Shown in pieces: positions 30,121 through 40,984 of a stretch of DNA of 64,000 bases. The translations under genes were made by a program, and so were the position numbers. The DNA is from Senegalia massiliensis (GTDB lineage Bacteria; Bacillota; Clostridia; Tissierellales; SIT17): the NCBI RefSeq assembly GCF_009911265.1, contig NZ_QXXA01000006.1, forward strand, positions 62,001 to 126,000, given 5' to 3'. Positions within the stretch are counted from its first letter, which is position 1; every line of letters starts with the position of its first letter. The notes beneath the pieces were generated by a model. That model was not told the origin of the DNA. It did not search any database and was given only the letters and a program-made list of their open reading frames with translations.

Positions 30121-30636
30121 TTATAAGATTTTAGGCCTAATAACTTCATTATAATAATATGAATATTTTTTGTCATTAATTACTACATTATTAATTGTTT
30201 GATATTCTTCTTTATTTCTTAGTTGACTTATAAGTCTGTTATTATCTAAACATATTTTAGAATACACTTTTATTAAATTTAACTCTTGGAAACAAAAATT
30301 AATAATCATTTGACCTACTAAAGATCCATAACCTAAGCCTAACCTATTTTCTGATATTAGTATACTATATTCTGCATTCCCATTTACCCAATTTATATTT
30401 TCAATAGAAGCATAACCTAATGTTTTATAACTTTTAGTTAAAACTAAAAAATAAATATTATTACTTTTTACCGAAGTTAAATTGTTATAAAAATAATTAT
30501 AAAGTTTATCTTCATCCATATTTGCACCAAATTTCTCCGATAAATATTTTGAAGATTCTCCTTTTAAAACTTCTATAACCTTAGATATATTTTCTTCAAA
30601 GAGCGGTTTTAATATTATTTTTCTTCCATAGATCAT
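30121..30636 (-). CDS. Divergent GNAT acyltransferase-like protein A2 (RimJ/RimL type)
   Basis: A 171-residue protein of RimJ/RimL-like GNAT layout. It starts MIYGRKIILKPLFEENISKV, continues with a central strand pair around LGYASIENINWVNGNAEYSI, the acyl-CoA-binding region near GLGYGSLVGQMIINFCFQEL (the Q/R-x-x-G-x-G/A loop is degenerate), then the tail INLIKVYSKICLDNNRLI. It resembles the protein at 32302-32766 in the middle third (INWVNGNAEY against IDWENRNCQM), so I call these the A type. ATG 30636 follows AGGGGGAT and overlaps nothing; the preceding gene ends 13 bases earlier. It is the last gene of the RiPP-like locus. Confidence 0.6.
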   Translation of the reverse strand: MIYGRKIILKPLFEENISKVIEVLKGESSKYLSEKFGANMDEDKLYNYFYNNLTSVKSNNIYFLVLTKSYKTLGYASIENINWVNGNAEYSILISENRLGLGYGSLVGQMIINFCFQELNLIKVYSKICLDNNRLISQLRNKEEYQTINNVVINDKKYSYYYNEVIRPKIL

Positions 30637-30649
30637 TATAATTATCCCC

Positions 30650-31105
30650 CTAATCATCTTGTGATAAAATCAATAAATCATGGTATTTATTTTGTTTGTA
30701 TATATGCTCTTTTAGTATTAATTCTGTTTTAAAGTTTAATATATCAGCAATTAATAATCCTTCTTTATCAAAACTATACATTCTCACAAAACTAACCTTA
30801 TACTTATTTACATATTCTAGTATAATACTTTTAAACTTTTTACAATTATTATATATTACATTTATATCAGATATTGAAATAGTCATAAATCTGTTATCAA
30901 ATTTCTCCTTAAAAGCAACTAAGCCTATCAATTCCGTACCATAAAAAATTGTTCTAATATCTTTAAATTGATGTAAAATACTTTTTATATTTCCTTCAGA
31001 TAAAGAATTGGGGCGTTTAGTATCAAAATAGAAGTTTTCATTTTGAAATAAAGTAAATACCTCTTTCAAAAATATATCTTCCATTTTTTTTAATTCTATA
31101 AGCAA
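30650..31105 (-). CDS. Divergent GNAT-like protein B2
   Basis: A 151-residue protein with a weak GNAT pattern: a helical N-terminus, the central strand TIFYGTELIGLVAFKEKF, and a C-terminal region VRMYSFDKEGLLIADILNFK where GNATs place their last helix and strand. It is similar in layout and in several short stretches to the protein at 32780-33262 (NFYFDTKRPN against DFYFFTTNPD; ELIGLVAFKEKF against QVIGLAFIKEF). Both are called type B. The TTG start is eight bases after GGAG. A promoter of its own lies at 31175-31203. It is translated directly before type A2. Catalytic competence is not evident. Confidence 0.5.
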   Translation of the reverse strand: MLIELKKMEDIFLKEVFTLFQNENFYFDTKRPNSLSEGNIKSILHQFKDIRTIFYGTELIGLVAFKEKFDNRFMTISISDINVIYNNCKKFKSIILEYVNKYKVSFVRMYSFDKEGLLIADILNFKTELILKEHIYKQNKYHDLLILSQDD

Positions 31106-31763: not shown

Positions 31764-31852
31764 TATTTAGAATTTAAATTATTTTGAATAAAATCAACTC
31801 TTCCTAGATGATCATCATTTCTAATATATTTACTTATATTAATCTTACTAAT

Positions 31853-31900
31853 ATCAATTATACCTTTTTATATAATTATATAAAAAGGTATAATTGATAT
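31853..31900 (-). terminator. Large perfect hairpin after the precursor genes
   Basis: Two perfect 22-bp arms (starting ATATCAATTATACC) around a 4-base loop, 55 bases after the stop codon of the second precursor. The arms contain T5 and A5 tracts, so transcripts from either strand could terminate. It may equally protect the 3' end of the precursor mRNA. Confidence 0.7.
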
Positions 31901-31954
31901 TTAATATATAATAATTAGATGAAACCAATACATATTTAACTAAAAGTTAATTTA

Positions 31955-32083
31955 TTATGCAAAAAAACCACAAGGATAATCTATATAAGAATTAACACAA
32001 GTCTCATATGCATAAATATCTTTGTTATCTTCTTTTTCATATAATGGCTTCTTGTAATCCAAAACCTTTTTTACCTCTAACAT
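31955..32083 (-). CDS. Candidate RiPP precursor peptide 2 (42 residues)
   Basis: The 27-residue leader starts MLEVKKVLDYKKPLYEKEDN and ends KDIYAYE. It is identical to that of the neighbouring precursor. The following 15 residues, TCVNSYIDYPCGFFA, form a different putative core with two cysteines. The leader is lysine/glutamate-rich with no signal peptide, so processing and export would rely on the cluster's own protease and transporter. The ribosome binding site AAAGGAGAG is nine bases ahead of ATG. The identity with the upstream copy also covers the untranslated leader. The cysteines are obvious targets for thioether formation by the radical SAM maturase; no modification can be proved from sequence. 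Confidence 0.8.
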   Translation of the reverse strand: MLEVKKVLDYKKPLYEKEDNKDIYAYETCVNSYIDYPCGFFA

Positions 32084-32267
32084 AATACTATCTCTCCTTT
32101 CTGTATTTATTAATATCCACCTGGATCATATGGTCTACCTGAATAAGAAGGATAACAATTATAACAAATCTCATATGCATAAATATCTTTGTTATCTTCT
32201 TTTTCATATAATGGCTTCTTGTAATCCAAAACCTTTTTTACCTCTAACATAATACTATCTCTCCTTT
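32002..32267 (-). repeat. 99-bp perfect direct repeat covering ribosome site and leader of the two precursors
   Basis: Bases 32002-32100 and 32169-32267 are identical over 99 bp with a 167-bp period. The identity begins just upstream of the ribosome binding site and stops at leader codon 27, after which the sequences diverge at once. The copies encode the same leader but different cores, which points to recent duplication or gene conversion with change confined to the core. Confidence 0.95.
32110..32250 (-). CDS. Candidate RiPP precursor peptide 1 (46 residues)
   Basis: It has the same 27-residue leader as precursor 2 (MLEVKKVLDYKKPLYEKEDN, then KDIYAYE), followed by the core ICYNCYPSYSGRPYDPGGY. 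This 19-residue segment has two cysteines three apart, five tyrosines and a Gly-rich end. Ribosome binding site and start are as in the second copy. The gene lies about 50 bases behind the GNAT-like A1 gene and 27 bases ahead of precursor 2, so all are on one message. The core differs fully from that of precursor 2, the usual pattern for multi-product RiPP loci. Confidence 0.82.
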   Translation of the reverse strand: MLEVKKVLDYKKPLYEKEDNKDIYAYEICYNCYPSYSGRPYDPGGY

Positions 32268-32301: not shown

Positions 32302-32766
32302 TTATAAAATTCTCTCAAAATAATTAATTTCAAATTCATTACTTATATTTTTTTTATGAAAATGATTATTTACTGCATTATAATAAATATTATCTTTTTT
32401 TAATAACCCCCATACTTTATGCATTCTAATTTCATTTTTACAAAAGTTTAGTAATAGTTTAATATATTGATTTAAATCTTCTCTATCATCAAAATAATCA
32501 CTTAGAATTCTTCCTATCATTTGACAATTTCTATTTTCCCAATCAATATTATATATACATAAAATCAGATCGGGTTTATAGTTTGATTTCTTATTTTTTT
32601 GTTTGAAAATAAATGGATATAATGATTTACTTAGAATTAGATTAGTTACACTTTTTTTCGAATAGTCAGCTATTAATCCCCTGCTACTAATAATTTCATA
32701 TTGATCTATTGTACTTAAAATTAAATTACTATATTCTTCACTAGGTCTTTCGAGTAATAATTTCAC
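32302..32766 (-). CDS. Divergent GNAT acyltransferase-like protein A1
   Basis: A 154-residue protein. The central strands and helix (LILCIYNIDWENRNCQMIGR, then DDREDLNQYIKLLLNFCKNE) and the ending IRMHKVWGLLKKDNIYYNAV match the layout of RimJ/RimL-type GNATs, especially the sister protein at 30121-30636. The N-terminal 60 residues are less alike. The start is GTG 32766 behind GGTGAT. It sits 13 bases after the B1 gene and directly ahead of the precursor genes, so in context it is likely a peptide- or lysine-acylating enzyme or an immunity-type acetyltransferase; neither is shown. Confidence 0.5.
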   Translation of the reverse strand: MKLLLERPSEEYSNLILSTIDQYEIISSRGLIADYSKKSVTNLILSKSLYPFIFKQKNKKSNYKPDLILCIYNIDWENRNCQMIGRILSDYFDDREDLNQYIKLLLNFCKNEIRMHKVWGLLKKDNIYYNAVNNHFHKKNISNEFEINYFERIL

Positions 32767-32779
32767 TTATATCACCATT

Positions 32780-33262
32780 TTATATGATTTTTTTATTTTT
32801 TGCTAAGTTAAAGATATAACTATCCCAAAAAACACCTTCTTTAAATATATCTTTCTTTTTGATTATCTCTTCATTGATACCTAATTGATTATAAAAATCT
32901 AGCTCATATTTATCAAATCCATAAACTACAGTTTCTATCCTTTGAATATTTTTATATTTTTTAAATAGAAATATTAAAAATTCTTTAAAAGCTAATCTTC
33001 CTACACTCTGATTTAAATCTGATTTTATTATTTTAAATTTATATAATATATATTTGAGATTAAATTCTTTAATAAAGGCAAGTCCAATTACTTGAAAATC
33101 TCTATCTAGTATTTTATATGTTTTACCATTTAACATTAAAAAACTGTTAAGTTCTTCATAAAAAACTATATCAGGATTAGTAGTAAAAAAATAAAAATCA
33201 TCTGTGAATAGAGATATAATATTCTCAAATTCATCTCTTTTTAACTCCTTTATAAATCGCAT
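32780..33262 (-). CDS. Divergent GNAT-like protein B1
   Basis: A 160-residue protein with GNAT-like order: N-terminal helices, strand QVIGLAFIKEFNLKYILYKF, a basic helix region SVGRLAFKEFLIFLFKKY, and a C-terminal IETVVYGFDKYELDFYNQLG typical of the final GNAT strand-helix-strand. No perfect acetyl-CoA loop is visible. It is paired with A1, just as B2 is with A2, so the AB pair is duplicated within the locus. The start is ATG 33262, with AAAGGAGAG eight bases ahead. The 22-base element at 33281-33302 lies in its leader and can pair with 33610-33630. Confidence 0.5.
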   Translation of the reverse strand: MRFIKELKRDEFENIISLFTDDFYFFTTNPDIVFYEELNSFLMLNGKTYKILDRDFQVIGLAFIKEFNLKYILYKFKIIKSDLNQSVGRLAFKEFLIFLFKKYKNIQRIETVVYGFDKYELDFYNQLGINEEIIKKKDIFKEGVFWDSYIFNLAKNKKII

Positions 33263-33320
33263 TAAGAATCTCTCCTTTATTATAAAATTGAGGTTGAATT
33301 TAATTAATATTTAATCAAAA

Positions 33321-33365
33321 TTAAGCATCAGGATAAGCTTTAGCATTTGGTAGTATAATATCCAT
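33321..33365 (-). CDS. Mini-gene 2: 14-residue peptide MDIILPNAKAYPDA
   Basis: The frame reads MDIILPNAKAYPDA and stop. AAAGGAG lies nine bases ahead of the ATG. A longer in-frame ATG at 33422 exists but has no ribosome site. The first ten residues equal those of mini-gene 1. Their codons differ at four positions, all synonymous (ATA/ATT, TTA/CTA, AAG/AAA, GCA/GCT), so the ten-residue sequence appears to be kept by selection while the tail varies. It contains one Lys and no Cys. The product may be a leaderless precursor, a cofactor-like substrate (in the manner of PqqA) or a signal. Confidence 0.7.
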   Translation of the reverse strand: MDIILPNAKAYPDA

Positions 33366-33457
33366 ATATAACAACTCCTTTAAATTATTAATCTTATTTT
33401 GCATACATTTTCTAATTGCCATTTAATTAAATTATTACTTAAATTCGATTTAGTAGA

Positions 33458-33508
33458 CTAAAACCAAGGTTGAGGTCCTGCCTTAGCATTTGGTAATATT
33501 ATATCCAT
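33458..33508 (-). CDS. Mini-gene 1: 16-residue peptide MDIILPNAKAGPQPWF
   Basis: The frame reads MDIILPNAKAGPQPWF and stop. A strong site, AGGAGGG, lies eight to nine bases ahead of ATG. It shares MDIILPNAKA with mini-gene 2 and differs in the last six residues, which end in an aromatic pair. It is encoded 127 bases after the ACP gene and in the same direction. A conserved front with a variable tail mirrors the leader/core split of the longer precursors, but the whole peptide is shorter than a normal leader. Confidence 0.72.
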   Translation of the reverse strand: MDIILPNAKAGPQPWF

Positions 33509-33635
33509 ATTCTCTTCCCTCCTATATTCAATTTTATGAAGAAATATTATTGAGCTTTAACTTTTAATTCTATTTAAAAATGACTAAATCTATTCATACT
33601 TGAATGATTTAAAATCAACCTCAATTTATAGCAAT

Positions 33636-33902
33636 TTAACAATTTATAAACAATTTATTATATATATATTCTCCTAAAGTCTCTATACTTTCGAACAAAT
33701 CTACTGAAAGTTCTTCATCTTCTATTTCTATGTCAAATTCATCTTCTATAGCAAATACTACTCTTATAGTAGCTAATGAATCAAATCCAAGTTTCCCCTC
33801 AAACAACAATTCTTTATCAGCTATTTCATCTTCACTCATTTCTAAATTTAAAATATTAATCAAAACTTTTTTTAGTTTCCTTTTTATTGAATCTTTATTC
33901 AC
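33636..33902 (-). CDS. Acyl carrier protein of the peptide locus
   Basis: An 88-residue acidic four-helix carrier. Ser42 in GFDSLATIRVVFAIEDEF is the phosphopantetheine attachment site (D-S-L motif), followed by the typical acidic helix II/III (DIEIEDEELS). It differs from a housekeeping AcpP by a basic N-terminus (KDSIKRKLKKVL) and sits far from any fab gene. Its ATG lies within the last codons of the subtilase gene, so the two are coupled. In this setting it would carry an acyl or aminoacyl group for peptide modification. From memory, clostridial Cys-rich peptide loci have such a carrier-related family. Confidence 0.85.
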   Translation of the reverse strand: MNKDSIKRKLKKVLINILNLEMSEDEIADKELLFEGKLGFDSLATIRVVFAIEDEFDIEIEDEELSVDLFESIETLGEYIYNKLFINC

Positions 33903-35838
33903 TTTTACTTACCTCCTTTAAACCTTGAGAATAAGATAGAGAATGTATAATATGTTCAACTAAATTATATACATCATTATTATAGTAAGTATCAAAAACA
34001 GGAATATTAAATTTATTTTCTATTTTATTTTTTTTAATAAAGTAATCATCAGCACTAATTTTTTCATTTATTATTAATTCACTAGTGTTAAAACCAACTT
34101 TTTTCTTAGATATTCTTCCCATAGATATTGCTATTACTTTTCCCTTTCCTATAAATTCAAGTGCTTTCAAACTCTCTTCTATATATTTAAGTGAATCTGA
34201 TGGATTAACAGTTAAAATATACGCATCAGCATTTATTCCCATTAGAAAAGCAATGCTAGGTAAAGTATAGTTATCTCTAGGTATAGTATATATACCATAT
34301 GGTATAATCCCTGATTGAGATCCTGCTATAATAATATCTGGCTTTTTCAAAGCAACTTTCTTAATTATATAATCTAAATACGATATATAATTATCTATAG
34401 GAATCTTGATATCCCCTTGAAAACCTAATGGAAAAGTTTCATCTATCCCAAATAACTCTGAATGAGGTTCAGTACCTATTTGACCAACTTTATAGTTATA
34501 TTCTTGTAGTTTATTTCTTATTGCTAATTGAGTAGTAAATTTTCCCTGATTTGAGCTTGTTCCGAATATTCCTAATATAGGAACTTTTATCTTTTCATTT
34601 TTTATGTATCTATAATAATCTTCATATTCCTTCCAATTATCTTCATTTATTAATGGATATTTTATTATCTGATTATTTTTTTTAGCTAATTCTAATAATT
34701 TTGAATACTTTTTATTTGTTAAACTGCTAAAGCTAAAAACATTTTTACCTGATTCTATAGAAATTTTTAAATATTTAAATAATATATCTTCATTATAAAT
34801 ATTACTAATTTTTTCTAAATGTCCTAAAATAACTGTATCGCTATCCTTAATAGCTTCCTTAAATTTAGTTTGAATCAGTAGACCATTTTCTTTACCTCTT
34901 ATAATCATTCCTGTATCTTTGCCTTTTGTTCCTTTACCTTTAATATCACATACATTTTTTATTTTAAAATCTAATAGCTCTTTAAAGTTTAACAAGGAAT
35001 GCATCTCTTTATTAAAAGGAAAAACCGTCGCTTGTTTTATCCATTTAATATTTTCTTTTTTTAAAACTCTATACATCAATGAATTTGTATATTTTAACTC
35101 TTTTATATTTTTATTTGATAAAAAGATTAAAGTTTTTTTAATATCTTCTGTTTTTATTCCATAGTCTAATAACAATGATACACAAGCACTCATATGTGGT
35201 GCGGCAAAGCTTGTACCATCTAAAAAGATATATTCTGGTACAGTCCAACAAAGCTTCTGTCTATCTCCTCTACAAATAAATCTATCTCCTAATGAGTCTC
35301 TTTGATAATAAAAATTAAATTTACCTCGTACATCTCCACCTCCTACTCTTATTGTATTCTTAAGAGATGCTGGGTAACTAACATGGCCTGTGTTTGATTC
35401 TGAAGAGATTATATTAATTTTGTTTTCTTCTGCAATATTAATTATTCTTTTTATTTCTTTTAAATTTTTTTCTTCTGTAGTTCCTAGGCTTAGATTTATT
35501 ATATCTACATCTTTGTTTATTGCTACTTCAATAGCTTTTACTAATATTCTATGATTACACTTTAATTTTTCTTGAAAAATCTTTATAATAAATAATTCTA
35601 CATTTGGAGCTTTTCTTACAATAATACCTGCGGTTGCGGTTCCATGTCCAATATTATCATCAAAATTTTTGCTAATTATAATTTCTTCTTTTGAATTTAA
35701 TTTAAGTGAGCATCCTTTTACTCTTGTATTTTTAAAAATTTTGTGTGTCATATTAATCCCACTGTCAATTATAGCAACTTTAACCCCTTCTCCCGTTTGT
35801 TTTGACAAATCAAAATTATTTAATATTATTTTAAACAC
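33895..35838 (-). CDS. Subtilisin-like (S8) protease fused to a DUF1611-like P-loop domain
   Basis: A 647-residue two-domain protein with no signal peptide or prodomain. Residues about 10-275 are an S8 protease with the full triad: Asp25 (IDSGINMTH), His65 (GHGTATAG), Ser209 (DGTSFAAPHMS) and oxyanion Asn148 (ESNTGHVSYPA). Residues about 280-640 resemble DUF1611, with a Walker-A-like GTSSNQGKFTTQLA at 425-438 and the following GQIGTEPHSELF, as in DgcN-like proteins. The start is uncertain: GTG 35838 overlaps the exporter stop codon; a longer frame to 35889 would overlap the exporter and lacks a site. It is the likely leader peptidase, since the exporter has no C39 domain. The fused domain may act on the released end. 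Confidence 0.82.
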   Translation of the reverse strand: MFKIILNNFDLSKQTGEGVKVAIIDSGINMTHKIFKNTRVKGCSLKLNSKEEIIISKNFDDNIGHGTATAGIIVRKAPNVELFIIKIFQEKLKCNHRILVKAIEVAINKDVDIINLSLGTTEEKNLKEIKRIINIAEENKINIISSESNTGHVSYPASLKNTIRVGGGDVRGKFNFYYQRDSLGDRFICRGDRQKLCWTVPEYIFLDGTSFAAPHMSACVSLLLDYGIKTEDIKKTLIFLSNKNIKELKYTNSLMYRVLKKENIKWIKQATVFPFNKEMHSLLNFKELLDFKIKNVCDIKGKGTKGKDTGMIIRGKENGLLIQTKFKEAIKDSDTVILGHLEKISNIYNEDILFKYLKISIESGKNVFSFSSLTNKKYSKLLELAKKNNQIIKYPLINEDNWKEYEDYYRYIKNEKIKVPILGIFGTSSNQGKFTTQLAIRNKLQEYNYKVGQIGTEPHSELFGIDETFPLGFQGDIKIPIDNYISYLDYIIKKVALKKPDIIIAGSQSGIIPYGIYTIPRDNYTLPSIAFLMGINADAYILTVNPSDSLKYIEESLKALEFIGKGKVIAISMGRISKKKVGFNTSELIINEKISADDYFIKKNKIENKFNIPVFDTYYNNDVYNLVEHIIHSLSYSQGLKEVSKSE

Positions 35839-37579
35839 CTTCTTTCTGCATGGAATGATTATAAAGCGTCTGATATGTTTCAGATACATTAACTAACGAA
35901 CTGTGATTTCCAAATGATTCAATTAATCCATTATTTAAAACGATTATCTTATCAAATTTTTTTATTTCTCTTAAATCGTGTGTAATATATATACATGTCC
36001 TATTACTACTTACATTACTTATAATATTAGTCAATTGTGAGCTTGCAAGTGCATCTAACCCTGTTGACATCTCATCAAATATTATAACTTCAGGATTCCT
36101 CAAAAGGACTCTTGCTATAGACAATCTCTGTCTCTGACCTCCTGATAAATTATTAGCATTATCTATAAGATTAGTATAGTATTTATTGGGCAAACTATTT
36201 ATATATTCATGCATACCTACAGTTTTACATACTTTTATTACATCTTCTATTTTATAGTTCTCGTTATTTAATCTAATATTTTCTATTATAGTATTTTTAA
36301 AGAATATAGATTTTTGAGGTACTATTCCTATTTTATCTCTCCACAAATCTATATTCATATCAAAAATATTATATCCATTAATTAATACTTGTCCTTTACT
36401 TACAGTGTAAAAACCTGAAATTATATCAATTATAGTAGATTTACCATCTCCATTTTTACCTACTATAGCTACATTTTCATTCTTATCGATAGTAAAATTT
36501 AAATTCTTAAATAAGCATATATTATCTTTATATATGAAATTTACATCCTTAAATTCTAAACTCTCAAATTGATCTATTGAGAAATTATTGTTTGTTTCCA
36601 CACTATGTTGATATAATATTTTACTTATTCTTTTATAAGATACTTTTGATCTTTGAAGTGAAAAATGAATATTTTTTATAAAAGATATAGGCTCATTTAA
36701 TCTAGCATAATAACTAGAAAAAGCTACAATCCCCCCTATAGTTATAAGATCATTTAAATATAAGTATCCACCATATCCAAATATCATAATAGTTCCAGTA
36801 AATATTAGCCATCCTACTATTGCTCCAGATGTTATAGTAGCCATATTAGATTTAATTATTTTTTCTTGTAATTTAGTTATGTTTTCCAAAAAAATTTCTT
36901 TAATGTATTTCTTATAATTAAATAACTGTATAGTCTTGACTTTAGAGATACTATCATAAAAAAAAGTGTTATACTTGGATCTCATAATTTGTTGATTTTG
37001 ATGAAATACTTTTATTTTCTCTGAATATAAGCGATTTAATATTAAGACAAAAATATATATTGATACTACTAGCAAAGTAAGTCTTACGCTAAGATAAAAC
37101 AATAAAGTTGTTATTCCAAAAATCATTAAAAGGTTATATATCGACATTGGCAATATGGTGGCAATAAAGTCTTGTACTACCCCCACATCATTATTAATTA
37201 TTGTAAATATATCTCCTTCATTATACTTTTTAAAGAAGCTAATTGGTAACTTTAATGTTTTATTAAATAATTCATTTTTAATATTTTTTTCAACTTTTAG
37301 TAATAGTTTTACATGTATATATTCTCTAATAACTTTAAGAATAAACTGTAAACAGTTTAATAGAATCATCAGCATAACTATTTTTATAAGTTCTAATGGC
37401 ATTGTATTTTTTATTAGACTATCAATAGTTAATTTAATTAAATATGGTATTCCTAAAAATGATATAGACTCTAATATAGATATAAATATGAAAATCATCC
37501 ATAAAATTTTTACTTTAAATAATTCATTTAAGAAAAACTTTTTTTCTCTATGTTTAATTTTTATATTTTCTTCAATCAT
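35831..37579 (-). CDS. ABC-type peptide exporter (fused membrane and ATPase domains, no C39 peptidase)
   Basis: A 582-residue half-transporter. Residues about 20-320 have six transmembrane helices (exporter type I fold). Residues about 340-575 are the ATPase: Walker A GKNGDGKST, signature NLSGGQRQRLS, Walker B EVIIFDEMSTGLD and switch YITHDL. The N-terminus (MIEENIKIKHREKK) begins directly before helix 1, so there is no C39 protease domain of the bacteriocin-processing kind. It should export the matured peptide as a homodimer. The start is ATG 37579 after AGGAGTGACAC. It lies 25 bases behind the maturase. Confidence 0.9.
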   Translation of the reverse strand: MIEENIKIKHREKKFFLNELFKVKILWMIFIFISILESISFLGIPYLIKLTIDSLIKNTMPLELIKIVMLMILLNCLQFILKVIREYIHVKLLLKVEKNIKNELFNKTLKLPISFFKKYNEGDIFTIINNDVGVVQDFIATILPMSIYNLLMIFGITTLLFYLSVRLTLLVVSIYIFVLILNRLYSEKIKVFHQNQQIMRSKYNTFFYDSISKVKTIQLFNYKKYIKEIFLENITKLQEKIIKSNMATITSGAIVGWLIFTGTIMIFGYGGYLYLNDLITIGGIVAFSSYYARLNEPISFIKNIHFSLQRSKVSYKRISKILYQHSVETNNNFSIDQFESLEFKDVNFIYKDNICLFKNLNFTIDKNENVAIVGKNGDGKSTIIDIISGFYTVSKGQVLINGYNIFDMNIDLWRDKIGIVPQKSIFFKNTIIENIRLNNENYKIEDVIKVCKTVGMHEYINSLPNKYYTNLIDNANNLSGGQRQRLSIARVLLRNPEVIIFDEMSTGLDALASSQLTNIISNVSSNRTCIYITHDLREIKKFDKIIVLNNGLIESFGNHSSLVNVSETYQTLYNHSMQKEGV

Positions 37580-37603: not shown

Positions 37604-38725
37604 TTATATTGCATGTTCTTTATTTTCAACAAATTTCTTTCTGAAAAAATCTGAATTCTCTAAATATAATTCATCTAATATTTTTCTCATTAAATTTATT
37701 ATAGTTCTTTGATAAAAACAAAATAATCCATTAACCCTATAAAAACTCCCAGTATTATTTTCATTTAAAGCTATGCATTTATAACATACACCAAACAAAT
37801 CACAATCTTTACATTCATGTTGATTATAGTCATATATTAAGTTATTACTAATATGCTGTGCATTCTGAATATTATGGACATCTCCTATACGATATTTCTT
37901 TTCTAGTAACCTTGCACATAAATATTTGTTCCCATCTGCATCAATAGTATACATTACAGTTCCAGCGCCACAATAGGATTTAGTATTAGGTTTAATTATT
38001 CTTTTCATAGTCTGATTAAATACAAAAATATCTTTTTTATCATTTTGAATGATAATTTCTTTATAATATTTAGCTAATTTATTAAGTTCATGTTCTAACT
38101 CTCTACCCTCAATGTCTGTCCAATTTTCAGTTATATCTAAATCAAAATTAACTTTTTTGAATCCTAAGTCAAATAAAGATTTAATATCCATATAAAGATA
38201 TTTTACTGTTTCTTTAGTAGCCGTATGACGTACTTGTATACTGTTTTTTAAAATGTTCTGATAATCTAAAAAGTAATGCATATTTTTTTCAATCAAATTA
38301 TATGATCCAGAACCAGATTTTGTAATTCTATTTAAATTGTGTGTTTTTTTACTACCATCGATACTTAAAAGAACCCCTACTTTATTTTCTACTAAAAATT
38401 CAAATATTTCTTTGTTCATTATAGTACCATTAGTAGTTATACTAAATAAGAATTCTCTTTCACCTTTAATCTCTAGTGATTTTGTGTATTTTAGAATTTC
38501 TTTCATTAATTTAAAGTTTAATAATGGTTCACCACCGAAAAAAGCTATATTATAATATATTGATTTATTTAATATTTTATTGTTTTCTTTATCACTAATC
38601 AACATATCTATAGATTTTTTAGCAGTCTCAAAATCCATTGTTTTTTTACGCTTGTCCAGCCCTTCAAAGCAATATTTACACTGTAAATTACAATCCTCCG
38701 TTAATAAAAGATTTAGACCTTTCAA
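37604..38725 (-). CDS. Radical SAM/SPASM peptide maturase
   Basis: A 373-residue enzyme. The SAM cluster motif C12-x3-C16-x2-C19 (TEDCNLQCKYCFEG) lies at the very N-terminus, with GGEPLLNF near residue 67. A C-terminal SPASM domain (about 250-350) has cysteines in YCGAGTVMYTIDADGNKYLC, HECKDCDLFGVCYKC and LFCFYQ for two auxiliary 4Fe-4S clusters. There is no room for an N-terminal RRE (PqqD-like) domain. SPASM maturases of this kind make thioether or C-C bonds on Cys-rich peptides; the Cys-containing cores at 31955-32250 are the obvious substrates. The start is TTG 38725 behind GGAGGAGTAGG. Confidence 0.9.
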   Translation of the reverse strand: MKGLNLLLTEDCNLQCKYCFEGLDKRKKTMDFETAKKSIDMLISDKENNKILNKSIYYNIAFFGGEPLLNFKLMKEILKYTKSLEIKGEREFLFSITTNGTIMNKEIFEFLVENKVGVLLSIDGSKKTHNLNRITKSGSGSYNLIEKNMHYFLDYQNILKNSIQVRHTATKETVKYLYMDIKSLFDLGFKKVNFDLDITENWTDIEGRELEHELNKLAKYYKEIIIQNDKKDIFVFNQTMKRIIKPNTKSYCGAGTVMYTIDADGNKYLCARLLEKKYRIGDVHNIQNAQHISNNLIYDYNQHECKDCDLFGVCYKCIALNENNTGSFYRVNGLFCFYQRTIINLMRKILDELYLENSDFFRKKFVENKEHAI

Positions 38726-38800: not shown

Positions 38801-38828
38801 ACTTAAATAAATATCCCCTTATTTAAGT
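38801..38828 (-). terminator. Hairpin between the signal peptide gene and the maturase
   Basis: Perfect 10-bp arms ACTTAAATAA/TTATTTAAGT around ATATCCCC, overlapping the stop codon of the 39-residue peptide. No long T-run follows, so it may be an attenuator or processing site that lowers expression of downstream genes rather than a full stop. Confidence 0.5.
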
Positions 38829-38938
38829 TCCATATCAGTAACCAAAAATATCTCAGGTATATCATCTCCTGCATAATTTAATTGTGGAGTTAATATAAGT
38901 AAAGTTAATATTAATATTAATATTCTGAATATTCTCAT
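38819..38938 (-). CDS. Secreted signal-peptide precursor, 39 residues (putative RRNPP pheromone)
   Basis: The product starts MRIFRILILILTLLILTPQL, then NYA, a likely signal-peptidase site, and ends GDDIPEIFLVTDMELK. A two-Arg start, a long Leu/Ile core and an A-G cut give a classic export signal, leaving a 16-residue acidic tail. The gene lies divergent from, and 160 bp away from, an HTH-TPR regulator, the arrangement of PapR/Phr/SHP-type pheromones. The ribosome site is AAGGGGTGA. A consensus-like promoter (39035-39063) precedes it. It contains no Cys, so it is unlikely to be a maturase substrate. The active form is probably a short C-terminal fragment. Confidence 0.75.
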   Translation of the reverse strand: MRIFRILILILTLLILTPQLNYAGDDIPEIFLVTDMELK

Positions 38939-39098: not shown

Positions 39099-40058
39099 AT
39101 GTTTGAAACTTATGATTTGAAAAATTTTGGTGCAAGAATAAGAAAAATAAGAAAGTCATTAGGTTATAGTCAAACACAAGTTTCTACAGAAACGGGTGTT
39201 CATAGAGATACTTTGAGAAGAATAGAAAATGGGAATAATATTGTGACCTTTGATACATTAAATAAATTATCCATGTTCTTCAAAAAAGACTTATTTCACG
39301 AGATAGCTCATTATAATACTAACAGAAACTTACTAAATTATTATGAAAAGATAGATGATATTATAAGTTCATATGATTACGATAAACTTATTAATATATC
39401 TAATGATTTTGAAGTTAATTTTAAAGATAAATCACCTTCTGATTTTAGCTTATATGAAGGTGGGGTTATTGAGCAATTCAGATTAATTGTTAAAGGAATT
39501 GAAAAATTAATTAAAAAAGATCAGGATAATAAAAAAATAATGAGTATCTTTAAAGAAGCATTAAAACTTACTCTAAAAGATTTTAATTTATATAATTTCT
39601 CTAAGTTTAAATATAATCTATTTGAAATTCGTATATTAATTATGATAGCAGTGGCTCTTAAAAGAGATAATAATTATGAAAAAAGTAATGAAATTTTAAA
39701 GTTTGCACTTAAATCTTTAGATTTTAGTGAAGAATCACTTCTAAATGAAAAAAAGCTTATAATTAAATGTTTTTCTAATATTTCATATAATTATCATAAT
39801 ATGAATAATTATATGAAATCTCTAGAGTATGCTATTAAAGGCATAGTCTATGCTATTAACCAAGATATTATATATGCTTTAAACCATCTATATTATAGAA
39901 AAGGTATTGCAGAATATTTACTTGATAAAGATGAAAGTATTTATAAAGATTCTCTTAATAAAGCCATACATATATTAGAAATAAAAGGATATTATGAATT
40001 AGCTAAAAAGTATAAAGAGATTACTAAAGATAGATATAACATATATTTAGATAGGTAA
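39099..40058 (+). CDS. HTH-TPR transcriptional regulator of RRNPP (Rgg/PlcR) type
   Basis: A 319-residue cytosolic regulator. Residues about 10-65 are an XRE-type helix-turn-helix (RIRKIRKSLGYSQTQVSTET, then GVHRDTLRRIENGNN). The remaining 250 residues are helical repeats (for example NISYNYHNMNNYMKSLEYAI) of TPR type that bind signalling peptides. The length and two-part layout are those of the RRNPP family (Rgg, NprR, PlcR, PrgX). The divergent gene encodes a secreted small peptide, its likely ligand. The start is ATG 39099 behind AAGGGGGG. It ends before a very large palindrome. Confidence 0.9.
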   Translation: MFETYDLKNFGARIRKIRKSLGYSQTQVSTETGVHRDTLRRIENGNNIVTFDTLNKLSMFFKKDLFHEIAHYNTNRNLLNYYEKIDDIISSYDYDKLINISNDFEVNFKDKSPSDFSLYEGGVIEQFRLIVKGIEKLIKKDQDNKKIMSIFKEALKLTLKDFNLYNFSKFKYNLFEIRILIMIAVALKRDNNYEKSNEILKFALKSLDFSEESLLNEKKLIIKCFSNISYNYHNMNNYMKSLEYAIKGIVYAINQDIIYALNHLYYRKGIAEYLLDKDESIYKDSLNKAIHILEIKGYYELAKKYKEITKDRYNIYLDR

Positions 40059-40189
40059 TAATATTTAAAAAGTAATAATATTTTTCTTCTATTTCTTAAC
40101 TCTTTTCAAGTGGAAAAATCATTCAGCACTTTCTTTCATAGCAAACTTCTCTATAATTTAATTTAATCTTCTAGTTCTTCTACATCTAA

Positions 40190-40241
40190 ATTTAAAGCTT
40201 GTATGGTTCTATAATATTATAGAACCATACAAGCTTTAAAT
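40190..40241. terminator. Perfect 52-bp palindrome, bidirectional terminator
   Basis: Two perfectly complementary 26-base halves without a spacer (core GGTTCTATAATATTATAGAA), between the convergent regulator and CPBP genes. Such a long perfect palindrome is rare outside terminators or site-specific recombination sites. Confidence 0.75.
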
Positions 40242-40303
40242 GAATCAATAACCAGTTCTAGGTTAGATAAATATACTAATTTATTTAACGTTAATATAAT
40301 TAT

Positions 40304-40984
40304 CTACTGCACCCTTATTCTTTTCTTCTTTACATTAAAATAAATAGAGCCAGTAAGATTAATGAGAATATGCATCAAAATGCTCATCCACAGTGATGAT
40401 GTGAGTAAAACTAGATAACCTATAGCATTTCCCACAATAAAAATCATAATGAATCTCAATATAGAATTTCTATTGAATTTAAATTCTCTCTCATAATTAA
40501 TATGAAACACAGAAAATAATAATGAGCTTATCATTACAAATGGTTCCTCATATTTCAATATTGGAAACATATTTAGCAAGCTCATTAAAATAATACCTCT
40601 AAATAGAATCTCTTCAAAAATAGGTACTACAAAAGAAAAATAATAGAATTCTGAACTATTCCAACTATGAGCTGCAGCAGTACCATTTAGATTTTGATCA
40701 GTTAAAAAATAAAATATTAAAATTCCTGATATCCAAGAAAATATATGCTTAATGGCTTCTTTGATATATAAAATATTTCTCCAAGGTTTATATTCACCAG
40801 GAATTATAAAAATAAGTACTATGAATAATATAGAACCCCAAAGAAAAGCCCACTGACTAGACCAAAGCAAACTATTTTTACTTAAAAAATTCTTCTTATG
40901 TAAAAAGAACTCTAGAATTGTATAGAGAAAAAGTGAAAAAATCATTATAATTATCCATAACATAATATTAATTTTGTATGACAT
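40304..40984 (-). CDS. CPBP-family intramembrane metalloprotease (CAAX/bacteriocin-immunity type)
   Basis: A 226-residue polytopic protein of about seven to eight helices. It carries the CPBP motifs: E124-E125-x3-R129 (PIFEEILFRG), H161 (SVFHINY) and a third His in SILMHILINLTG. This family includes Rce1-like proteases, immunity proteins for bacteriocins, and pheromone-processing enzymes (Eep is a different family). Lying next to the RiPP-like locus, it may give self-protection or trim the signal peptide. The start is weak: no ribosome site lies close to ATG 40984; a strong AAGGGGAG instead serves a 16-codon frame (40951-41001) overlapping it. Confidence 0.85.
   Translation of the reverse strand: MSYKINIMLWIIIMIFSLFLYTILEFFLHKKNFLSKNSLLWSSQWAFLWGSILFIVLIFIIPGEYKPWRNILYIKEAIKHIFSWISGILIFYFLTDQNLNGTAAAHSWNSSEFYYFSFVVPIFEEILFRGIILMSLLNMFPILKYEEPFVMISSLLFSVFHINYEREFKFNRNSILRFIMIFIVGNAIGYLVLLTSSLWMSILMHILINLTGSIYFNVKKKRIRVQ

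Follow-up and report, generated by a model that had tools for sequence, protein, structure and literature searches.

Paired 16- and 14-codon mini-genes in a radical SAM peptide cluster of Senegalia massiliensis as a candidate second, ultra-short precursor type

Introduction

A gene cassette for Cys-rich peptides is known from clostridia, and consists of genes for a radical SAM protein (TIGR04068), a TIGR04066 protein, an acyl carrier protein (ACP)-related protein (TIGR04069), an S8 protease and an ABC transporter (PMC4573289; PMC10731318). In the passages of these sources cited here, the cassette is described in Roseburia intestinalis L1-82 (PMC4573289) and Paenibacillus polymyxa SacP23 (PMC10731318), and in the former strain the structural gene was reported to be not immediately obvious (PMC4573289). 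Concerning very short genes, most precursors of microcin C are peptides of 7 residues according to the cited part of PMC6495379, and a leaderless peptide has been suggested to control a biosynthetic cluster in Firmicutes (PMC10518010, in the section cited). Here we describe a pair of mini-genes found within a cluster that has the same five gene kinds as the clostridial cassette. The cluster is located in a 64-kb stretch of S. massiliensis DNA, the whole of which was analysed and is referred to below as the window.

Results

Two mini-genes with a common N-terminus

The two mini-genes are as follows.

33458..33508 (-), mini-gene 1, MDIILPNAKAGPQPWF, 16 codons, stop codon TAG
33321..33365 (-), mini-gene 2, MDIILPNAKAYPDA, 14 codons, stop codon TAA

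The first ten residues of both are MDIILPNAKA, followed by tails of unequal length, GPQPWF (6 residues) in mini-gene 1 and YPDA (4 residues) in mini-gene 2. A GGAG sequence is present 10 nt upstream of the ATG in mini-gene 1 and 9 nt upstream in mini-gene 2, in agreement with the original prediction, made from the letters of the DNA, that each has a ribosome site. The coordinates, lengths, sequences and silent differences of the paired frames were likewise confirmed. In the 60 nt read upstream of mini-gene 1 there is no ATG, GTG or TTG between the nearest in-frame stop and its ATG, and the frame is therefore not extendable in this direction. Mini-gene 2 is nested within a 33-aa frame (33422-33321), whose upstream ATG (33422) has no ribosome site in the preceding 25 nt. 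The peptides contain no Cys and a single lysine, Lys9, inside the constant part.

A degenerate search for MDIILPNAKA gave 2 matches in the window and 0 in 100 shuffles. When extended to the whole 3.1-Mb genome, the search again gave 2 matches, both of which are the mini-genes. Sixteen GGAG-preceded ATG ORFs of 8-25 aa are present in the 64 kb, and more than two common leading residues were found only in the mini-gene pair. Aligned in register, the two form a 51-nt direct repeat (D3, 76%), in which the likeness extends a few bases beyond the stop codon of mini-gene 2. The flanks are unrelated, with matches at 14 of the 40 nt upstream of the starts and at 9 of the 40 nt downstream of the stops, random pairs giving 13.1 ± 3.0 matches per 40 nt.

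Silent and replacing differences between the mini-genes

The ten common codons contain 4 differences, of which 4 are silent and 0 replacing. In codons 11-14, compared in register, 3 of the 4 codons differ at 6 nucleotides, all replacing, with one Pro codon unchanged, and codon 15 is Trp in mini-gene 1 and the stop in mini-gene 2. If four substitutions fell at random in codons 2-10, the probability of every one being silent was 0.0016-0.0071 across 12 settings, the value depending on the model and being uncorrected for the many ORFs among which a reader might have chosen. The contrast between the constant part (4 silent/0 replacing) and codons 11-14 (0/6 nucleotides) gave a Fisher p of 0.0048, and 0.029 when counted by codons (4/0 vs 0/3), values that carry the same lack of correction. 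All these probabilities are optimistic because the boundary between constant part and tail was picked after viewing the alignment. As the flanks are unrelated, the coded peptide, and not a DNA or RNA element, looks conserved, insofar as one pair shows. The original prediction that selection acts on a real short peptide is supported, here in one pair from one genome, by differences that are silent only and by flanks that are unrelated. A conserved leader with a variable core among paralogues, a criterion for RiPP precursors, is seen in this one pair with the boundary set post hoc.

That the mini-genes are known from one genome, and that the pair is the whole sample, would also fit a non-functional origin, an old duplicated DNA segment that has kept its frame by chance. 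We regard this as very unlikely, because the changes in the constant part are silent only, with the probabilities given above, GGAG is present at both mini-genes despite their unrelated flanks, and no other GGAG-preceded short ORFs of the window are alike.

The gene cluster around the mini-genes

The mini-genes are on the same strand as the cluster and directly follow the ACP gene. The other features of the region are listed below.

39099..40058 (+), HTH regulator, divergent from the cluster (HTH_3 47.2 bits, cut-off 23)
38819..38938 (-), 39-aa ORF with a signal-peptide-like N-terminus (judged by eye), AAGGGGTG upstream, putative classical pheromone precursor
37604..38725 (-), radical SAM/SPASM-like peptide maturase with PapB as its nearest model (NF047865 247.7 bits, cut-off 340)
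35831..37579 (-), ABC transporter, membrane domain and ATPase (PF00664 and PF00005 above cut-off)
33895..35889 (-), S8 protease fused to a TIGR04066/DUF1611-like P-loop domain (PF00082 above cut-off)
33636..33902 (-), ACP (PF00550 32.3 bits, cut-off 20.8), GFDSL present
32780..33262 (-), weakly GNAT-like protein a1 (PDB diamine N-acetyltransferase, E 0.0096, marginal)
32302..32766 (-), weakly GNAT-like protein b1 (similar to 30121-30657 in one comparison, E 0.005)
32110..32250 (-), putative Cys-containing precursor 1, leader with KKPLYEKEDNKDIYAYE
31955..32083 (-), putative Cys-containing precursor 2, variable C-terminus
31850..31901 (no strand assigned), perfect palindrome that may serve as a terminator downstream of the last precursor (fold z -8.15; the call of the scan is restricted to the + strand)

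The cluster looks built for making modified peptides. In the radical SAM protein, PF04055 was above its cut-off, the SPASM domain PF13186 scored 17.2 against a cut-off of 21.5, and CX3CX2C is present at residues 12-19. The scores of the cassette families were 149.8 bits for TIGR04068 on the radical SAM protein (cut-off 500), 124.3 bits for TIGR04066 on the fused protein (cut-off 200; 2-360 of the 361 profile positions aligned) and 27.8 bits for TIGR04069 on the ACP (cut-off 70). As all of them are below cut-off, we regard the cluster as a variant, and not a member, of the cassette. The ORF of the fused S8 gene overlaps the ABC gene, and its start codon is therefore uncertain. Strand and spacing suggest that the cluster is co-transcribed; a promoter scan found sites no more frequently than in shuffles (92 vs 92.5).

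The first 27 codons of the two Cys precursors are identical and their ends different. The pair (31955-32250) is a recent duplication of 133 nt at 92%. No NCBIfam precursor family matched either of them. The mini-peptides, which share no leader with these precursors and lack Cys, have therefore no obvious site for a radical SAM enzyme.

The original prediction had raised the possibility that the mini-peptides are a substrate for acylation. The ACP, which adjoins the mini-genes and carries GFDSL, presumably the phosphopantetheine motif, together with the two weakly GNAT-like genes immediately downstream, would suit a reaction in which the whole mini-peptides are acylated by the GNAT-like proteins using an ACP-bound acyl group. 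However, the GNAT identity is weak, the single-sequence models being of low confidence (mean pLDDT 40.8 for a1 and 44.6 for b1). No acetyltransferase was found among the PDB matches of b1, and neither protein had a Pfam match above cut-off. The Pfam-scanned cluster proteins include none for fatty-acid or polyketide synthesis other than the ACP, and as an ACP-related protein is part of the known cassette, the ACP is not specific evidence for acylation. In addition, the only lysine sits in the constant part and would be absent from any product released from the tail. The proposal is left without specific support, and we consider acylation of the mini-peptides very unlikely. Past the palindrome, two genes on the - strand, one for a GNAT protein (30121-30657) and a small one beside it (30650-31105), are weakly like 32302-32766 and 32780-33262.

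As an RRNPP-like regulator is present and leaderless peptides are known, a role as intercellular signals is possible, in which the peptides or their tails would be exported and sensed by the regulator at 39099-40058, which would control the cluster. The regulator matches HTH_3 and, weakly, RNPP_C and is transcribed away from the cluster, an ABC transporter is present, and leaderless communication peptides encoded by very short genes are known in Firmicutes (cited section of PMC10518010). On the other hand, RNPP_C is below cut-off (17.3 bits, cut-off 26.5), and a distance of ~5.6 kb, occupied by several other genes, separates the mini-genes from the regulator. A better-placed candidate ligand is the ORF at 38819-38938, which has a signal-peptide-like start and adjoins the regulator, making the two a candidate pheromone precursor-receptor pair. 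Furthermore, the leaderless peptides described are of 8-9 residues and hydrophobic, or aliphatic plus aromatic (PMC10518010, in the section cited), whereas the mini-peptides have 16 and 14 residues and contain Asp and Lys. We consider a signal role unlikely, and less likely than that of a precursor. A Rce1-like CAAX-type protease is also encoded near the regulator (40304-40984, - strand).

An inverted repeat bracketing the pair

The stretch that holds the mini-genes is 373 nt long, its listed ORFs do not exceed 36 aa, and an inverted repeat brackets the pair.

33285..33308 (no strand assigned), inverted repeat arm, 24 nt, just before the ribosome site of the next gene
33604..33627 (no strand assigned), inverted repeat arm, 24 nt, just after the ACP stop codon

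The arms are 88% complementary with a 13-nt perfect core. Their score was reached in 0 of 200 shuffles and in 1 of 167 window tiles, the tile that holds this repeat. The 19-nt pattern of the repeat had one further match in the genome, with two mismatches, the reversed-pattern control also gave one match, and the 13-nt core at two mismatches was not enriched in the window (3 found vs 4.57 expected). Three readings of the repeat are conceivable, namely a long stem in the RNA, a segment that can invert, or what an insertion left behind.

In another reading the mini-genes are regulatory leader ORFs, whose translating or stalling ribosomes would control translation of the downstream GNAT-like and precursor genes. 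The position of the mini-genes upstream of a GNAT-like gene in a stretch otherwise poor in ORFs, the end of the inverted repeat beside the downstream ribosome site, and the fold of the whole stretch, which is somewhat better than in shuffles (z -1.65, equalled by 4 of 100), would agree with this. However, the local fold at each mini-gene falls short of the mean of shuffles (z +1.30 and +1.48), a terminator scan found no terminator-like hairpin between the mini-genes and the next gene, and Rfam gave no match at E ≤ 1 in the stretch, sub-threshold matches occurring only at 40167-40253, outside it. As replacing-only changes in the tails are also not predicted by such a function, we judge it improbable.

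Relatives of the fused protease

The fused protease is rare. In a protein search (E ≤ 1e-25) of 249 genomes of the order, it was found in its own genome along with two partial or unfused matches. Five of 391 genomes of the class were matched at the same threshold; a long fused frame is present in the own genome, G440 and G301, the two others are partial, and G440 carries a second, unfused match. The 22-genome family of G440 contains no matches beyond its own two (E ≤ 1e-40). Profile searches (E ≤ 1e-40) of a second draw of 392 class genomes gave the own genome, G1123 and G1141 (long) and G1085 (partial), and those of 398 genomes of the phylum the own genome alone. In three congeners there was no fused-protease match at E ≤ 1e-20 and no match to a relaxed mini-gene pattern. 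Viral contigs gave no fused-protease match, a tblastn search of plasmids and phages no record covering 80% of it, and Cys precursor 1 no plasmid match.

The slot occupied by the mini-genes was compared in five other fused S8-TIGR04066 loci, L012 (G440), L013 (G301), L025 (G1123), L026 (G1141) and L027 (G1085). L004, L005, L010 and L011, which are partial or unfused, and L014, which is cut by a contig end, were left out of the count. The S8 motifs, which we take to form the active site, are invariant in the fused proteases of the window, L012 and L013. A small Cys peptide gene is present between the ACP and fused genes in three of the five loci (L012, L025 and L026); in L026 the listed fused ORF shares its first 31 nt with this gene. 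L013 has three precursor copies upstream of the fused gene and the ACP elsewhere, and in L027, a partial fused-protease match, no small Cys peptide gene was seen. A Lys-Pro leader together with Cys, as found in the precursors of L012, L013 and L026, is present in both Cys precursors of the window and absent from the mini-genes.

The copies in L013 (5165-5525) are three tandem 26-aa precursors ending in IWCC, VHCC and VVCC. Between copies 1 and 2, three codons of the body are changed silently, and codons 23 and 24 of 26, close to the C-terminus, are replaced; copy 3 has one more silent change, in the last codon. In the pair of L012, codons 9, 11 and 20 are changed silently and one codon is replaced between them (13 of 24). 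The pair thus speaks for purifying selection, but as the replacement is mid-peptide it gives no support to a variable end. Paired Cys-rich precursor-like ORFs of 56 and 58 aa were also observed near a TIGR04066 match in L089 (8186 and 8679, - strand).

Searches for counterparts of the mini-genes

A relaxed GGAG-ATG pattern was run against 84,980 species genomes (contigs of at least 3,000 bases) and found no relative of the mini-genes, pattern scans finding only what fits the pattern. The sole match in this collection came from an archaeal MAG, where it falls within a long gene, and was attributed to chance. The evidence for selection therefore consists of one pair. Conservation in other genomes, a further criterion for RiPP precursors, was not seen with the patterns tried. 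With the relaxed pattern, 125 genomes of the order gave the two known copies alone, and viral contigs had no match to the strict pattern.

We also screened 40 loci, comprising 32 regions around TIGR04066 matches and eight earlier loci, for paired short ORFs and LPN-type motifs, without accepting any ORF as a counterpart of the mini-genes. Run over the 20,845 short ORFs of these loci, the motif screen gave many loose matches, none of which was accepted. A lone ORF ending in PNAK in L079 (10419) has no ribosome site and was not accepted. A short ORF pair sharing MIVHSPLVF in L016 was rejected as a duplication by-product, because it lies within a 114-nt duplicated stretch (96%). Repeated MLLNYE... 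ORFs in L013 were also rejected, being out of frame with the precursor copies, whose ends they overlap. Paired short ORFs in L077 and L089 (+ strand) were set aside and not taken as counterparts. Two plasmid neighbourhoods of radical SAM matches, from 187 records, proved to be other kinds of cluster. A search for MDIILPNAKA in one collection of papers found nothing.

Discussion

The reading we favour, on evidence from sequence comparison, is that the mini-genes encode precursors of a second, ultra-short kind, in which ten constant residues would serve recognition and 4-6 variable ones would form the product, a proposal to which we give about an even chance of being correct. MDIILPNAKA would be recognized by a cluster enzyme or by the protease or exporter, and the tail, GPQPWF or YPDA, would be released by the S8 protease, possibly modified, and exported by the ABC transporter. 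We infer co-transcription and translation of the mini-genes, and recognition, cleavage after the constant part and export of the mini-peptides. The combination of a silent-only constant part, a replacing-only tail and unrelated flanks points to a precursor. So do the small Cys peptide gene found in the like slot of three of the five other loci, and the Cys precursors of the window, which likewise form a pair with a constant start and different ends. Microcin C offers a precedent for precursors of very small size (cited part of PMC6495379). Against this, the mini-peptides offer the radical SAM enzyme no obvious site, a 10-residue leader is short for recognition by an enzyme, the tails differ in length, no relative outside the genome was accepted, evidence for selection comes from one pair, and L012 has no variable end.

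The earlier interpretation is supported in part, as regards selection on a short peptide, whereas acylation has no specific support. The term leaderless is probably wrong, as a constant N-terminal part with a variable tail is a leader/core pattern, one that is also seen in the Cys precursors of the window and the three copies of L013. It is the pattern expected of natural-product raw material, here at an unusually small size. A possible but rather doubtful extension is that one cluster handles two substrates, the Cys precursors serving the radical SAM enzyme, while the S8-DUF1611 protein cuts a minimal precursor of tag and product. The mini-peptides would then be among the shortest leader-plus-core precursors, and annotation would miss such genes. 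Should the peptides be produced, such clusters would contain precursors under the usual gene-calling limit, which could account for the Roseburia cluster reported, in the passage cited, to have no immediately obvious structural gene (PMC4573289). They would also provide a very small, synthesisable substrate with which to probe the S8-TIGR04066/DUF1611 protein and the ACP. In one collection of papers, a search combining DUF1611, radical SAM and peptide found none.

Compared with the clostridial cassette, the cluster differs in that the S8 protease and TIGR04066 form one protein, in that its radical SAM protein is nearest PapB, and in the presence of ultra-short and GNAT-like genes. With PapB ranthipeptide systems it shares NF047865 as the best NCBIfam model of the radical SAM protein. 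Ranthipeptide thioether chemistry needs Cys; unlike in those systems, the maturase of the window is under the NF047865 cut-off and the mini-peptides contain no Cys. As with the leaderless peptides of Firmicutes that have RopB-type receptors, the genes are very short and encode no signal peptide, but those leaderless peptides, in the section cited, are of 8-9 residues with a receptor gene nearby (PMC10518010), whereas those described here are of 14 and 16 residues and ~5.6 kb from a weakly RNPP-like regulator. No MccB/ThiF-type family was found among the families listed for the cluster proteins (the best 25 for two of them). Unlike the microcin C peptide MRTGNAN, the tails lack a terminal Asn and follow a constant-plus-variable design. 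With microcin C, whose MccA precursor is described in the cited part of PMC6495379, the mini-genes have in common the use, in their case putative, of ultra-short genes as RiPP precursors.
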